NCBI RefSeq assembly: GCF_900100705.1
Contig: NZ_FNCH01000004.1
Location: 124,001-188,000, forward strand
DNA: 64,000 nucleotides
Direction: 5' to 3'
Source: Pedobacter terrae
GTDB taxonomy: Bacteria; Bacteroidota; Bacteroidia; Sphingobacteriales; Sphingobacteriaceae
This document shows positions 56,950-63,346 of this stretch, piece by piece (the first letter of the stretch is position 1; the number at the start of each line of letters is the position of its first letter). The translations under genes and the position numbers were made by a program. A model generated the notes under the pieces. The model was not told the DNA's origin. It was given only the letters and a program-made list of their open reading frames with translations, and searched no databases.

Positions 56950-58773
56950 CTAAACCCCATCTCCCCGCAAATTCCTAAATCTTTTTCTTGCCTCAGCGCT
57001 GAACATACTTCCAGGATAATCCGTAATCAGTTTTTGAAAATATATTTTTGCTTGCACAATATCGTTCAGTTTCTTCTCGTACAGATCGCTTAACGTAAAT
57101 AGGGCATCATCCGTCCAGATTCCATCTTTAAATTCTTCCGTTACTTTTTTAAGAATATCAACAGCTTTTTGAAAATCGTTTGCTTTAATAAAAATCCGTG
57201 CTTTACTCATCATTATCGCATCCGTTAAGCTATTTTGAGGATAGGCAATCGCAATGCTATCCATTTTTTTTATAGCCTTTTCAGGCAGGTTTCTAAATAA
57301 AAGCATTTCTGCATCAGCATACATTTTTAAGGCATTGCTATCGGCTGGTGTCTGGATGTTATCACTAATCAATAAACTTAGGTTTAGTGCATCATTGGCA
57401 ATTAGTTGTGAGGTAGCGGCTTTTAGCACTAAACATTGGCTATTGCTGTATTCGAAATTGCCCTGATAAAAAGAAAGTTTAGCGCTCCTGAAGCGGGCCT
57501 CATTTCCTATCGGTTGTCCTTCAAACCGTTTGCTCACCTGCTCGTACACTAAAAAAGCTTCCCAGGGTTGGTTAGTTAAAATATAAATATCACCTAAATC
57601 GAGTTTTAGCTGGCCTAAGTCTTGATCGTTAATACCAGGCATTTTTATCGCTTCTTCCAGTTCTTTTTCAGCATTGGCTGGCTGATTTAGATAATAAGCC
57701 TGCAGGTTCGCTAGTTTTTTTATAGCAAAAAGTGTGTTCCTGTTCTTGCCGTTTTCATTTAATAATGCCTGATAATCTTTCGCCAGGAGATCAATGTCGG
57801 CAATGGTATATTTTCCACTGGTACGTAGGTTGTACCTGGTATTCAGCATTTCTATTTTTGAGGGAAGATAATATTGGTTGTCTTTTCCTTTGGTCAGTAT
57901 ATAGTCATACGCTTTAATCGCTGTTTCGTAAGCGCCGTTGTCTACAAAAGTGTAAATAGCATTAAATAAGGAGCCCCCATCTGCTTTGGTTCGTTTATCG
58001 TACGCAATAAGCTGGCGCAATGCCATGTCAAATTCCTGTTGTTGAATGTAATTCCAGGTAAGTAACTGAACGTAAACTTCGGCATCAGGCGCTTTTTGTA
58101 CTTTTTTTAAAATGGCTGCCTGAAACGTTTGATAATCATTTTTATCTTCAAAAATAGAAGAGAGTACAATTTCGGCCTGCGGTAAAAGTTGTGGCATTGT
58201 TGCAAGGGCATCCAAATACTCTTGCATCAGCATGGGCTTATCTTTTTTAAAACGGTAAATGTTTAATAATTCGAAGACAAACATTTGATCGTCTCCAAAT
58301 AGTTTTCTGCCTTGTTTAAAAGTTTGTACCGCATAGTCGTAATTTTCAAACCGATAAAAGCTATTGGCCAGATTTCTGATCCTAAATTCCTCTTTTGGTA
58401 GTTTTGCTATGACCTCATTAAAGATTTTATTGGCCGCCTGTACATCGCCTTTCTCCTGATAAAGCTTGCCCAAGGCGATTGGATAAATATCGTTCTGTGG
58501 ATTTTTTTTGATTTCCTTTTTAACCACTTTCTCCGCCACATCATAGCGTTTCAATTTTAGCAACGCATTAAAGTAAATGTCGAAATAGGCTTCGTTATTT
58601 GGGGTGGCATAGAGTTTTTCCAGTAGCACAGCCGCTTTGTCGTATTCGCCATCCTGATAATATTGGATAGCCAGGCTACTTTCATCAGGAGCAATTTGCT
58701 GATTGGGGCGGGAAATTTGCGCACTTGCCCCAAATGATAGCAATAAGAATATGATGAAAAGAAAACGGTTCAT
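56950..58773 (-). CDS. Exported TPR-repeat protein
   Basis: A 607-residue protein with a signal peptide (MNRFLFIIFLLLSFGASAQ, cleaved after SAQ). About a dozen TPR-like helical pairs follow, for example YYQDGEYDKAAVLLEKLYATPNNEAYFDIYF and IALGKLYQEKGDVQAANKIFNEVI, and the last repeats (ALFTLSDLYEKKLNDIVQAKIYFQKLITDYPGS) look like those of outer-membrane assembly TPR proteins. Likely a periplasmic scaffold. No enzyme domain is visible. Single gene. Confidence 0.85.
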   Translation of the reverse strand: MNRFLFIIFLLLSFGASAQISRPNQQIAPDESSLAIQYYQDGEYDKAAVLLEKLYATPNNEAYFDIYFNALLKLKRYDVAEKVVKKEIKKNPQNDIYPIALGKLYQEKGDVQAANKIFNEVIAKLPKEEFRIRNLANSFYRFENYDYAVQTFKQGRKLFGDDQMFVFELLNIYRFKKDKPMLMQEYLDALATMPQLLPQAEIVLSSIFEDKNDYQTFQAAILKKVQKAPDAEVYVQLLTWNYIQQQEFDMALRQLIAYDKRTKADGGSLFNAIYTFVDNGAYETAIKAYDYILTKGKDNQYYLPSKIEMLNTRYNLRTSGKYTIADIDLLAKDYQALLNENGKNRNTLFAIKKLANLQAYYLNQPANAEKELEEAIKMPGINDQDLGQLKLDLGDIYILTNQPWEAFLVYEQVSKRFEGQPIGNEARFRSAKLSFYQGNFEYSNSQCLVLKAATSQLIANDALNLSLLISDNIQTPADSNALKMYADAEMLLFRNLPEKAIKKMDSIAIAYPQNSLTDAIMMSKARIFIKANDFQKAVDILKKVTEEFKDGIWTDDALFTLSDLYEKKLNDIVQAKIYFQKLITDYPGSMFSAEARKRFRNLRGDGV

Positions 58774-58972
58774 AAACCCTAAATTATAAGTTTTAAATGT
58801 AATATTTTAATACATCTTTAGCTAAACGGCCAATGGATATTAAACGTATTTTAAATGTTACCTGTATTTTATTTTGTAGGTATTTTATAAATACTAAATT
58901 GAACCACTACTTATTATTAGATCGCATGAGTAACTTTGTTGGTGTAAATCGCTGTTAAATTAATGTGATGTT

Positions 58973-58980
58973 TATTTTTG
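58973..58980 (+). promoter_or_regulatory. TATTTTTG -7 box before the S9-like operon
   Basis: Canonical TAnnTTTG, 22 bp before ATG 59003. A second box, TAACTTTG, lies at 58931-58938. The -33 TTG is not convincing for either. Confidence 0.4.
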
Positions 58981-59002
58981 TCATCCCGTAAAGGATTTAT
59001 TT

Positions 59003-60886
59003 ATGCTTAAAAGGATTTTCCTATTGTTAATGGTTGCATTGATCTGGGCTTGCAAAGGCACAAACCATGATACTATTCCTGTAGACGAATTTTTTAAAAC
59101 GCAGGATAAAGCCTACTATCGCATTTCGCCTGATGGGAAAAGTCTTTCGTATTTGAAACTTCATGATAAAAAACTTGATCTTTTTGCTGAAGATCTTGCC
59201 ACCGGAAATAGTGTTCAGTTAACCCATTTGAATGGAAAGAATATCAGTTTCCACTTCTGGACCAGCAATAATGAGCTGATTTATTATACCGAAGATGGAT
59301 CTAAAGAACGCAGGTCTGATATTTTTGTGATCAATAAAGATGGAAGCAAGCAGGTGCAATTGAGTGCCAACGAGAAGAACAGGTTAAGGGTAATAGAAGA
59401 TCAGCTAATTAATGATAAATACATTATTGTAGCCTCCAATAAACGCGATTCGACTGTTTTTGATGTATACCGCTTAAACGTGCGGGATGGAAAAATGGAG
59501 ATTGCGGCAAAAAACCCAGGCAATATTACCAAATGGATGACAGACAGTAAAGGTGTACTTAAAATTGCCGTTGCCAGTGACGGAGTGAATGAAACCCTAA
59601 TGTACCGCGAAAAGGAAAACGAGGCTTTTGTACCTGTAATTACCAATAATTTTGAAACAACTTTGCAGCCGATTGCATTTTCGGAAGATCAACCCAACGT
59701 GCTTTATGCTATCTCTAGTGTTAACCGGGATAAAAATGCACTGGTAGCAATTGATTTAAAAAGTGGCAAAGAAAAACAGGTACTTTTCGCAAATGATACC
59801 TTAAATGTAGTGGATGCAACCTACTCCCGTTTCCGTAAAAAAATGCTTTTTGCAACCTGCGAAACATGGAAAAGGGAAAAGTTTTATCTGGATGACAGTA
59901 CAAAAGTGGCTTACTCTGGCATTGATAAGCTTTTACCCGGTACTGAGTGGATTATTATGGATAGGGATAAAACCGATAAAGTATTTGTGATACGCACATT
60001 TACCGATAAAAATCCAGGTTCTTATTATTTATATACGGCTGTAGATCAAAAGCTTAAAAAGCTTACTGACGTGAGTCCTTACATTAAACCGGAAGAGATG
60101 AATGCCATGGCACCCATCAGCTTCAAAAGCCGGGATGGTTTAATAATTAATGGTTATTTAACCTTGCCAAAAAATAAAAAGGCAGCTAACCTGCCTGTGG
60201 TTGTACTGCCACATAATGGCCCTAAATCTAGAAACAGCTGGGGTTACAATGCAGAGGTACAGTTTTTGGCCAACCGGGGTTATGCCGTTTTGCAGGTAAA
60301 TTACCGTGGTTCTACCGGTTATGGGAAATCGTTTTATGCTGCAGGTTTTAAACAATGGAGCGATAAAATACAGAATGATGTTAACGATGGTGTTAAATGG
60401 CTGATTGAGGAAAAAATTGCCAACCCTAAAAAAATTGCCATTTATGGCAATGGGTTTGGCGGTTACATTGCTTTAAATTGTTTATATAAAAATCCTGATC
60501 TTTATAAGTGCGGCGGATCAAATTCTGGGGTAATTAACCTGTTCAGTTATCTGAAAACCTTTCCTCCATTTTTAAAGGCTAAATTGCAGATGTATTACGA
60601 AATTATTGGCAATCCTGTAACCGATACCGATTATATGCGGTTTGCTTCACCCGTGTTTCATGCAGAACGGTTCAGATCTCCTGTCTTTATTGCCCAAAAT
60701 CCAAAAGACCCGACGGTTAACGTAGCAGAAGGGGTGCAGTTCATCAAAGAACTTAAAAAAAGGAACGTTCAGGTTACCTATATCGAAAAAGAGGAAGGTC
60801 CTGACCCAATCGTTCGCCAACAGAGTAGAACAGCACTATACAAAGCTTTAGAAGCATTTTTAAAAGAAAATCTAGGTAAGAAATAG
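59003..60886 (+). CDS. S9-family-like lipoprotein lacking catalytic Ser and His
   Basis: A 627-residue lipoprotein (LLLMVALIWACKGTN, Cys17) with an N-terminal beta-propeller region (about 30-380) and a C-terminal alpha/beta hydrolase domain (about 385-627). The domain has the S9 hallmark VLPHNGPKSRNSWGYNAEVQFLANRGYAVLQVNYRGSTGYGK, but the nucleophile elbow is YGNGFGGYIAL, with Gly where Ser should be (G-x-S-x-G), and the His loop is EEGPDPIVRQ rather than G-H-x-F. The Asp position (AQNPKDPTVNV) persists. Peptidase activity is therefore unlikely. It precedes a histidine kinase by 2 bp, so a sensory or scaffolding role for that two-component system is plausible. Confidence 0.85.
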   Translation: MLKRIFLLLMVALIWACKGTNHDTIPVDEFFKTQDKAYYRISPDGKSLSYLKLHDKKLDLFAEDLATGNSVQLTHLNGKNISFHFWTSNNELIYYTEDGSKERRSDIFVINKDGSKQVQLSANEKNRLRVIEDQLINDKYIIVASNKRDSTVFDVYRLNVRDGKMEIAAKNPGNITKWMTDSKGVLKIAVASDGVNETLMYREKENEAFVPVITNNFETTLQPIAFSEDQPNVLYAISSVNRDKNALVAIDLKSGKEKQVLFANDTLNVVDATYSRFRKKMLFATCETWKREKFYLDDSTKVAYSGIDKLLPGTEWIIMDRDKTDKVFVIRTFTDKNPGSYYLYTAVDQKLKKLTDVSPYIKPEEMNAMAPISFKSRDGLIINGYLTLPKNKKAANLPVVVLPHNGPKSRNSWGYNAEVQFLANRGYAVLQVNYRGSTGYGKSFYAAGFKQWSDKIQNDVNDGVKWLIEEKIANPKKIAIYGNGFGGYIALNCLYKNPDLYKCGGSNSGVINLFSYLKTFPPFLKAKLQMYYEIIGNPVTDTDYMRFASPVFHAERFRSPVFIAQNPKDPTVNVAEGVQFIKELKKRNVQVTYIEKEEGPDPIVRQQSRTALYKALEAFLKENLGKK

Positions 60887-60888
60887 GT

Positions 60889-62562
60889 ATGGCCTTAGAT
60901 AAAAAAAGCAGTTACCGTAAAAATTTCTCCCTGGGTATAACTTTTATTGTACTCATTTCCATTCTTTTTATCCTATCGCTTTTCCTTGCATTTAACTATA
61001 GCAAAAAAACGATAGAGAACGACTTTGTTTCTGAGAAGGTAAATGTACTTGAACAGAGTATTAAGCCATACAATGATTTTTTTCAGAATAAAATGCCTGA
61101 GATTTCATATTACAATGGCTATTTAGATTCTTCTACTGCTGCAAAGTTTGTAGATACGGTGATGTTAAAGTATCCCTTCATTTCAAAGGTTACTTTTTAC
61201 GATACAGAAGTAAAGAATGTTCCTGTTAAGGATGGAATCAATGCAAACCACCTGGGTATTGGTCCAAAATCTATTTTTCAGTTCGGGAAAGGGATAAAGC
61301 CTGATTCTGTAAAGTTGTATTCAGCAGATGATACCAAATCTTTTACCTTAGGGAGTGATTTTAATGCAATTGCCATTAAACTTGCCACTTTTGTTGAGGA
61401 TCTCGATACCGCATCAGTACCTACACAAGAAGAGTTGTTCACCAATTTTTCTATCGTTAATTCTAATGAAAATAAAATTACTTACCTGAATATTCCCCGC
61501 CGGGAAGATTTAAGGGTATATAAAGATATGATCAGGCGGAAGTTAAATCCGGCTCCCGTATATCAACAGGATGTAATGGTTTTTAATCTTGATGCACATA
61601 AAATCAAGATCATTAATACCAGGCCCTTATTGTACCAAACGATCAGGATTGAACCGCTAACTTACGATCCGATTGATACCCCAGACGAAAATATCAATAC
61701 CGAAATTGCACTGCCAGGCGCATTTTCCGATTTTAAATTATACCTAATTTCATCAAAATCCTACATTAAGAAAGAAATTTTTATTTACTTCATGCCGATC
61801 GCTTTAGTGCTCTTGCTGGTATATGGCGTGCTTTTATTGGTTGCATTTCTGATTTATCGTAACCTGAACATTAATAGTAAAATGTTTAAGTTACAGTACG
61901 ATTTCGTAAATAACCTTACACATGAGTTTAAAACGCCCGTGAGTGTAATCAAAATTGCTGGGAACAATATTAAAAGTGCAGCCGCTTTGAGTCAGAAAGA
62001 GCAACAGCTTTATGGCAAGATACTGGATGAAGAAGCCGACAAGCTGAACGGTCTAATGAACAAATTACTGGCCTTTACACAAATCGAAAATAAGGCGATA
62101 AAACTCAACCAGGAAGAAGTTAATATTGTTGATTTTATTGAAAGTACAATCGAATCACATACGCTAAAACATCCTGATTTTAAGATTACCTACGAAGTGG
62201 TAGGCTTTAAAACCTTTATTACTGACCCGGTGTTGTTAGGAAGTCTGTTCGATAATCTGGCAGAGAACGCTTACAAGTATTCTAAACCAGAACAGAAAAA
62301 ATTACACATTAGTGCAAAGCTGATAAAAGGGGTGCTGGTTTTTCGCTTTGCCGATAAAGGGATAGGCATCGCGTCATCTGAATTAAACAATATATTTAAA
62401 AAGTTTTTCAGGATCCAGAATGAATATAACCAAATGGGCAGTGTTGGCCTGGGTTTGGCATTCTGCAAAGAACTGGTTAACTTTATGGAAGGAGAAATCT
62501 CCGTAAAAAGTAAAGTAGGAAGTGGTACGGAGTTTAAAATCGTGCTACCTTATAATAGTTAA
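60889..62562 (+). CDS. Sensor histidine kinase
   Basis: A 557-residue membrane kinase with TM1 (about 14-37), a periplasmic domain of roughly 260 residues, TM2 (about 298-325), then HisKA with the phospho-His in NNLTHEFKTPVSVIK (about 345-359), N-box DNLAENAYKYSKPE, G1 FADKGIGIASSEL and G2 MGSVGLGLAFCKELV. Starts 2 bp after the S9-like gene and is followed 94 bp later by its response regulator. The signal is unknown; the large sensor domain may contact the S9-like lipoprotein. Confidence 0.92.
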   Translation: MALDKKSSYRKNFSLGITFIVLISILFILSLFLAFNYSKKTIENDFVSEKVNVLEQSIKPYNDFFQNKMPEISYYNGYLDSSTAAKFVDTVMLKYPFISKVTFYDTEVKNVPVKDGINANHLGIGPKSIFQFGKGIKPDSVKLYSADDTKSFTLGSDFNAIAIKLATFVEDLDTASVPTQEELFTNFSIVNSNENKITYLNIPRREDLRVYKDMIRRKLNPAPVYQQDVMVFNLDAHKIKIINTRPLLYQTIRIEPLTYDPIDTPDENINTEIALPGAFSDFKLYLISSKSYIKKEIFIYFMPIALVLLLVYGVLLLVAFLIYRNLNINSKMFKLQYDFVNNLTHEFKTPVSVIKIAGNNIKSAAALSQKEQQLYGKILDEEADKLNGLMNKLLAFTQIENKAIKLNQEEVNIVDFIESTIESHTLKHPDFKITYEVVGFKTFITDPVLLGSLFDNLAENAYKYSKPEQKKLHISAKLIKGVLVFRFADKGIGIASSELNNIFKKFFRIQNEYNQMGSVGLGLAFCKELVNFMEGEISVKSKVGSGTEFKIVLPYNS

Positions 62563-62656: not shown

Positions 62657-63346
62657 ATGTCTAAAGAAGTAAAAATATTAATAGTAGAAGATGATGAGAA
62701 TCTTCGTTTTTTGGTAGCACACCGATTAAAGGCTGAAGGTTACACGGTGATGGAAGCAAATGATGGTGAAGCGGGAGAAAGAATGATTTTGGCTGATCAG
62801 CCTGATATTGTTTTGTTAGATTGGATGATGCCCGGCAAACAAGGTGCTGAGGTTTGCGAAAATATACGTAAACAGGGTTTCGAAAACCTGGTGATTATGA
62901 TGACTGCTAAGGCACAGGATGTAGATAAAATTGATGCCTATAATTTTGGTGCATCTGATTATATCACCAAACCATTTAATATGGATGTTTTGGTGGCCAT
63001 GTTGGAGAATAAGGTGAAATTTATCGTCAATAAAGATTCGGCCGAAATACACCGTTTTGGCAATATGGAGCACCATCCAAACATTCATACTTTATTCAGA
63101 GATGGAAAGAAAATCGAATTAACGATATTGGAAAACCGTATCCTCCTTTATTTTCTGCGTAACCCTGGCAAGGTAATTAATCGTGATGAATTGATGCTCG
63201 TGGTTTGGGGCTACAACTCTGATGTAAATACCAGAACACTTGATATGCATATTGTACGCTTACGTAAGAAGATAGAATTGAATCCTGATAACCCACAGTT
63301 GCTACAAACCGTTAGAGGGGTAGGTTATCGATTTAATGCGGGATAA
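62657..63346 (+). CDS. OmpR/PhoB-type response regulator
   Basis: A 229-residue protein. Receiver: acidic pocket VEDDEN (10-15), phospho-acceptor Asp in VLLDWMMPGKQG (about 53-64), MTAKAQD and the Lys of DYITKPFN. DNA-binding winged helix: LTILENRILLYFLRNPGKVINRDELM then RTLDMHIVRLRKKIELNPDNPQLLQTVRGVGYRF. Partner of the kinase upstream. The gap between them holds GA/CT hairpin repeats (GAAGGTTAA / TTAACCTTC near 62586-62610). Confidence 0.93.
   Translation: MSKEVKILIVEDDENLRFLVAHRLKAEGYTVMEANDGEAGERMILADQPDIVLLDWMMPGKQGAEVCENIRKQGFENLVIMMTAKAQDVDKIDAYNFGASDYITKPFNMDVLVAMLENKVKFIVNKDSAEIHRFGNMEHHPNIHTLFRDGKKIELTILENRILLYFLRNPGKVINRDELMLVVWGYNSDVNTRTLDMHIVRLRKKIELNPDNPQLLQTVRGVGYRFNAG

Follow-up and report, generated by a model that had tools for sequence, protein, structure and literature searches.

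An S9 pseudo-peptidase lipoprotein encoded with a histidine kinase in the Sphingobacteriaceae and the repeated loss of its catalytic serine

What does a protein with the fold of a peptidase do beside a two-component system once its catalytic residues are gone? The question is raised by a locus of Pedobacter terrae that lies in a stretch of 64,000 nucleotides (contig NZ_FNCH01000004.1, positions 124,001 to 188,000), called the window in the following, whose first letter is position 1. The genome containing the window has a size of 5.76 Mb. A sequence-only reading had described a dead S9 hydrolase next to a histidine kinase and had proposed that it binds peptides and signals to this kinase. We infer, likewise, that the S9 protein binds a peptide and signals to the kinase, and the explanation as a whole, in which the protein serves as an accessory input subunit, is given a probability of about one half.

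The S9 gene (59003..60886, + strand, as are all features below unless stated otherwise) encodes a lipoprotein of 627 aa. Pfam places a PF00326 (Peptidase_S9) match over residues 413-626 (1e-35, above the curated cut-off), and among solved structures the acylaminoacyl peptidase 5l8s is nearest in sequence (E 2e-32). The AlphaFold model (pLDDT 90.4, pTM 0.89) finds its best structural match in the same cold-adapted acylaminoacyl peptidase (5l8s_A, E 5e-38, TM 0.77/0.80) and aligns with S9 structures across almost its full length, which comprises a propeller and a C-terminal alpha/beta-hydrolase fold. The S9 prolyl oligopeptidase-like fold read from the letters is thus borne out. The nucleophile elbow has the form YG-N-G-F-GG with Gly484 (60452..60454, codon GGG) aligned to the catalytic Ser. 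In the His loop, which reads EEGPDP, it is Asp601 (60803..60805) and not Pro600 that aligns with the catalytic His of EGH, while the catalytic Asp is retained as Asp569 (60707..60709). The window protein therefore has neither the Ser of GxSxGG nor the catalytic His, both as first described, and with Gly484 and Asp601 in these places it is predicted to be a non-peptidase homologue of family S9.

The stop codon of the S9 gene is followed after 2 nt, the distance given in the sequence-only reading, by the ATG (60889) of a sensor histidine kinase of 557 aa with HisKA and HATPase_c domains (60889..62562). An OmpR/PhoB-type response regulator (62657..63346) comes after the kinase, and a TPR protein is encoded divergently upstream of the S9 gene (56950..58773, - strand). 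A permissive lipobox pattern marks Cys17 of the S9 protein (59051..59053) as the candidate lipidation site, and this Cys is invariant in 22 of 22 aligned sequences. The periplasmic domain of the kinase (about residues 34-300, 60988..61788) has no significant match in Pfam (best DUF2737, E 0.07-0.09, under the cut-off). Its model (pLDDT 82.7, pTM 0.69) is most similar to Mlp37 (5ave, Z 9.9, 209 residues at 4.8 Å), with KinD (4jgq) at Z 8.9. Ligand-binding domains of chemoreceptors and kinases top the structural comparison, and some of them are labelled dCACHE; we take most of the top matches to be of this class. Foldseek matches for the dCACHE fold are weak (best E 7e-3). The periplasmic domain may resemble sensor domains of the dCACHE class, in which a long N-terminal helix is combined with two stacked PAS-like lobes.

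The S9 gene is nearly universal in the family. At a threshold of E 1e-60 or better, it is present in 388 of 399 genomes of the Sphingobacteriaceae, mostly in single copy, in 374 of the 380 more complete ones and in 22 of 25 genera. An order-level draw of 300 genomes gave 298, and all genomes listed belong to the same family. Of 295 genomes sampled across the class, 10 have the kinase at E 1e-50, and every one of these belongs to the family. One kinase-coupled locus is labelled Flavobacteriaceae (L149), and its S9 sequence falls inside the own-genus clade; several other kinase-coupled loci are MAGs named to phylum level only. Among the genomes where the S9 gene is missing, three are 71-76% complete (G008, G009, G043), and a fourth (G262) probably has an assembly gap, because its kinase lies at the start of a contig. 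One genome of 100% completeness (G067) has neither the S9 nor the kinase gene at the thresholds used.

For a comparison of the catalytic positions, 259 loci with an S9 match were collected, 215 of which have the kinase alongside. From these, 225 distinct sequences were kept and 4 broken or partial ones dropped, so that the final set holds 177 kinase-coupled and 44 kinase-free sequences. The latter (44 of the loci L105-L176) come from Bacteroidota, Ignavibacteria, Chlorobi and other MAGs and share the architecture of the S9 proteins in the operon. They were chosen by similarity to a live member, from the best 80 of 565 matches, and within this sample they are the nearest relatives outside the clade, with 44-50% identity to the operon member L039. 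A homologous kinase was found beside none of the 44, two of which (L109, L176) have less than 210 nt of downstream sequence, too little to tell.

All 177 kinase-coupled S9 genes directly precede a homologous kinase, with a gap between the open reading frames of -151 to 193 nt. The distance from the S9 stop to the kinase Met, which was chosen by rule, has a median of 6 nt and is at most 60 nt in 153 of 154 measurable cases. The lowest kinase score is 163 bits across the 177 loci, compared to about 127 bits for unrelated kinases of the same genomes. Of the three-gene operon, the kinase stands beside the S9 gene in 177/177 loci, and the regulator is seen in the window and in three loci of a genus without the S9 gene. 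By the permissive pattern, 170 of the 177 operon members have a lipobox-like Cys, as opposed to 16 of the 44 kinase-free homologues. Acidic residues after this Cys can direct lipoproteins to the cell surface. In 156 of the 170 operon members only 0-1 such residues follow, which gives no clear sign of an acidic export signal.

The triad has a different fate on the two sides of this division. While Ser, Asp and His are present in all 44 kinase-free homologues, the full triad is intact in 26 of the 177 operon members. The remaining members have Ser without His (2), have lost Ser and kept His (8; 6 with Gly, 2 with Arg) or have lost both (141). Ser is replaced in 149 cases, by Gly in 142, Arg in 6 and Asn in 1, and 175 members retain the catalytic Asp. 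The Arg variants (codons CGT or AGA) occur in L118, L120, L274, L278, L087 and L269, two of which keep His. In all 28 Ser-bearing operon members the Ser codon is AGC or AGT, one base away from Gly codons. Gly may in addition be favoured at the nucleophile elbow, as the backbone is strained there. The sequence-only reading had asked whether orthologues next to orthologous kinases also lack Ser and His, which holds for most of them, and had named intact triads in the same operon as the finding that would speak against it. By its own criterion, the idea would be refuted by the 26 intact orthologues. What stands of it are the loss of the catalytic residues, the genetic coupling throughout the family and purifying selection on the protein; the intact triads reflect repeated decay from an intact ancestor rather than a disproof of the pseudo-enzyme.

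Within the clade of the window protein (63 members), Gly484 is fixed in 63/63, together with His404, Arg410, Asn433, Arg435, Gly486 and Gly487. A sequence error at the Ser codon is ruled out by the Gly in all of these members. The same clade bears on a further explanation, according to which the dead proteins are still enzymes that use other chemistry or a displaced nucleophile. Such an activity would fit with the retention of the catalytic Asp in 175/177 members and with the Asn, Ser or Thr that often stands directly before the Gly. The His loop of the clade, though, has no consensus (the commonest residue at position 601 is Asn, 37%) while the elbow Gly is invariant, and residues 483-488 of the window protein contain no Ser, Cys or Thr, which leaves this explanation highly unlikely.

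The order of events can be read from two trees. In a FastTree of 221 rows, from which the three catalytic columns were removed, the 177 kinase-coupled sequences are monophyletic (support 1.0), as they are in an IQ-TREE mixture-model tree of 87 rows with 77 representatives and 10 outgroups (support 100). In both trees the catalytic columns were left out, and the root is reconstructed with Ser and an intact triad. On the 221-row tree, at least 12 changes are needed for Ser and 9 for His; with re-gain forbidden, there are 19 and 9 losses. The 87-row tree gives 13 and 9 changes, 18 and 9 without re-gain, and still 13 changes at Ser when branches with support below 95 are collapsed. In two Mucilaginibacter-type sequences (L127, L277) Ser is back inside a Gly group while His is lost, which looks like a re-gain by chance. 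Since one of the 12-13 Ser changes is thus probably a re-gain, the losses number at least about 11-12. Ser was usually lost before His, as seen from the 8 members without Ser that keep His versus the 2 with Ser that lack it. All 44 kinase-free homologues have the Trp of HGGPW and the last Gly of GHGF, neither of which is kept in the live operon members. The surroundings of the triad being lost in live members already, selection for catalysis seems to weaken ahead of the loss of Ser. All 12-13 Ser changes fall in the kinase-coupled clade, which accounts for 40.8 out of 54.5 units in total tree length. The probability that the kinase-free branches would have none of them by chance is 0.02-0.03, a modest excess of losses on the coupled side. 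As kinase coupling arose once, the link between coupling and loss offers no independent events for testing, and the kinase-free sequences were themselves selected for their similarity to a live member.

Purifying selection still maintains the dead protein. By the Nei-Gojobori method, with 17 of 60 sampled dead pairs and 3 of 46 live pairs usable, the median dN/dS of the S9 gene is 0.040 in dead and 0.047 in live pairs. The values for the same dead pairs are 0.028 in the sensor domain and 0.015 in the kinase core. The ratio of hydrolase to propeller divergence rises from 0.54 in kinase-free homologues to 0.68 in live operon members and 0.85 in the dead clade of the window protein. Two further clades whose members are all or mostly dead have ratios of 0.63 and 0.56, so the hydrolase domain is not generally loosened after the loss. 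Pseudogene decay was considered and ruled out by the dN/dS of about 0.04 and the near-universal retention.

Gaps in the distribution of the S9 gene deserve attention at this point. In one genus (g11), the kinase is present in 5 of 6 genomes and the S9 gene in none of 6. Three of its loci (among L211, L212, L216, L214, L215) have the order TPR protein, kinase, regulator with no S9 gene in between. A kinase tree and a kinase plus TPR tree, both unrooted, put g11 with L053, inside the S9-bearing lineages given the root of the S9 tree; with this position, loss of the S9 gene is a simpler reading than primary absence. Frame-broken S9 genes stand beside full-length kinases in three one-contig assemblies (G142, L066/L205; G187, L067/L206; G284, L207/L252), and these are either real pseudogenes or assembly errors. 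The kinase of g11 without an S9 gene and the three frame-broken copies beside whole kinases argue against a tight partnership between the two proteins. They would also suit a relaxed gene that decays while it is carried along with the kinase. This possibility is very remote, as it is contradicted by the dN/dS of about 0.04 in dead pairs; moreover, among the matches listed, which are the stronger part of the table, all S9 genes read without stops and all except that of G284 span the protein.

The main rival places the S9 protein at the output and not at the input of the two-component system. It would be an envelope effector, such as a scaffold, a chaperone or a binder of peptides or peptidoglycan, that is autoregulated together with the system and makes no contact with the kinase. 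This role is possible, if somewhat doubtful, and several observations are in line with it. The S9 gene is the first of the operon and lies behind a conserved upstream element, as a regulated target could, and the kinase of g11 persists without it. The intergenic region between the TPR and S9 genes (58774-59002) is strongly conserved in Pedobacter and contains several GTAACATT-like copies. The conserved element of the window (TTTTAAATGTTAC, 58849..58861) is a candidate operator. The upstream 8-mer AAATGTTA occurs in 25 of 61 representatives across genera, compared to 1.8 expected from base-shuffled sequences, and the stricter form TGTAACA/TGTTACA in 6 of 61 upstream regions only. The upstream element (AAATGTTAC) is a candidate binding site of the regulator. 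In the window genome, TTTTAAATGTWAC has 3 matches versus 5 for a reversed-pattern control; since it is no commoner than the control, no regulon can be read from the motif.

A direct partnership would find some support in the invariable position of the S9 gene, which adjoins one kinase in 177/177 loci with a gap of a few nt, and in the enrichment of the lipobox-like Cys in operon members (170/177 versus 16/44). Both are compatible with an output role even so, and adjacency and near-universal presence fit such a role as well. Coevolution was analyzed in two ways. The rate covariation between S9 protein and sensor domain does not exceed the background across 52 genomes (partial correlation 0.24, or 0.27 on end branches), with values of 0.35 (0.24) for the kinase core and 0.51 (0.45) for the TPR neighbor. 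Mutual information between S9 and kinase columns in 172 paired sequences places 27 of the top 50 pairs in the sensor, where 28.2 are expected. That the coevolution of S9 protein and sensor is nothing special would suit an output role. As phylogeny dominates both tests, these null results neither prove nor exclude a contact between S9 protein and kinase.

Since the S9 branch lengths correlate more with those of the TPR neighbor (partial correlation 0.51) than with those of the sensor (0.24), the TPR protein could be an additional partner. It is a frequent but not universal neighbor that was found upstream in 91 of the 177 operon loci. It is absent in 39 loci with more than 900 nt of upstream sequence, and the other 47 had less sequence. 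In one genus (g16; L178-L203, 26 loci), no TPR homologue lies within 1.3-1.5 kb upstream of the S9 gene, so the neighborhood differs there although the S9-kinase pair is kept.

The accessory-input explanation connects these observations as follows. In the best reading of the tree, an S9 lipoprotein gene with an intact triad would have entered the operon of kinase and regulator as its first gene, in an ancestor of the Sphingobacteriaceae. The ancestral protein was presumably an active peptidase, judging by its intact triad. Inside the operon, the S9 protein would have gained a further function for which its shape is required and its chemistry is not. Catalysis was then dispensable and disappeared many times, usually with Ser first, while the protein as such stayed strongly constrained. 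The lasting job would be that of an accessory input subunit, in which the cavity of a membrane-anchored propeller-hydrolase may bind a peptide or an envelope fragment. The lipoprotein would modulate the dCACHE-like domain of the neighboring kinase, much as in LuxP-LuxQ or LpqB-MtrB. Since the catalytic residues were lost repeatedly and the protein was kept, its lasting job is probably binding and signaling, not cutting.

The 26 intact members leave room for a role of catalysis in some lineages, in which the S9 protein may edit the signal: live forms would make or destroy the peptide that is sensed by the kinase, and dead forms would bind the same peptide uncut. In addition to these members (26/177 with Ser, Asp and His), the Ser at the reconstructed root would fit with such an editing function. 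There is a precedent in DPP10, an S9 ancillary subunit that carries Gly at the catalytic Ser in mammals, where it is a subunit of Kv4 and does not cut, and that is both subunit and still a cutting peptidase in the fly, according to PMC4873792. On the other hand, the 26 members no longer hold strictly to those residues around the triad that never vary in kinase-free homologues, and the repeated loss itself indicates that cutting is dispensable. Signal editing is accordingly regarded as improbable. A more specific version of the receptor idea holds that a dCACHE-like kinase acquired a peptidase as its ligand-binding subunit in the ancestor of one family and that about a dozen lineages switched its catalysis off independently, mostly by a Ser-to-Gly change, because cutting the ligand blunts the signal. 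This proposal is tentative, and we hold it to be rather doubtful.

Known systems share individual traits with this locus. Several plant receptors, GID1 among them, are derived from hydrolases and show how an alpha/beta-hydrolase fold can turn into a receptor; they are soluble, have no propeller and are not known to be coupled to a kinase. A propeller also occurs in LpqB, which is not known to be an S9 hydrolase. For LuxP, a periplasmic binding protein, neither a hydrolase fold nor a lipid anchor is known, and the tandem PDC domains of LuxQ belong to the dCACHE class. A sensor role like that of LuxP or LpqB is the likeliest one for the S9 protein. According to PMC8534201, LuxQ has tandem PDC domains and senses AI-2 through LuxP, so that a separate periplasmic protein carries the ligand of the kinase, a likeness of working only. 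The MtrAB-LpqB operon of Actinobacteria has three genes, one of which encodes the lipoprotein LpqB, a modulator of the kinase MtrB (PMC5487470). LpqB is likewise an accessory lipoprotein encoded with a kinase and a regulator but comes from another phylum, its gene follows the kinase gene whereas the S9 gene precedes it, and the two are likened by their working only.

A parallel in fold is given by DPP10/DPP6, which in mammals are inactive and serve Kv4 channels as ancillary subunits; they have the S9 propeller-hydrolase architecture, with Gly at the catalytic Ser in mammalian DPP10. The 'Inactive dipeptidyl peptidase 10' (4wjl, E 3.1e-6) is among the PDB matches of the window protein. The differences lie in the partner, which is an ion channel and not a histidine kinase, in the membrane helix that takes the place of the lipid anchor, and in the 12-13 Ser changes that occurred here inside one bacterial family. 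The kinase-free S9 homologues differ from the operon members by a triad that is complete in 44/44. Prokaryotic prolyl oligopeptidases were surveyed in PMC4522959, which describes the triad as highly conserved in its subtypes; a term search of its full text returned no histidine kinases, inactive forms or Pedobacter. In the titles and abstract starts searched, with subscription journals mostly outside the search, no paper turned up on an inactive S9 protein tied to a histidine kinase. Separately, inactive S9 subunits and accessory kinase lipoproteins both have precedents, but neither their combination nor the serial loss was found in the literature searched.

Pseudo-enzymes are usually studied singly, after one ancient loss. 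In the Sphingobacteriaceae, one operon of one family harbors forms that are live, half-dead (without Ser but with His) or dead, and because these forms stand side by side, the passage from an enzyme to a signaling subunit is directly testable. If the serial decay from peptidase to receptor is true, the live and dead operons would be a natural series that leads from the one to the other. If the sensor reading is true, an S9 pseudo-peptidase would join the accessory inputs of histidine kinases, and a function would be given to a protein that 388 of the 399 family genomes sampled encode.
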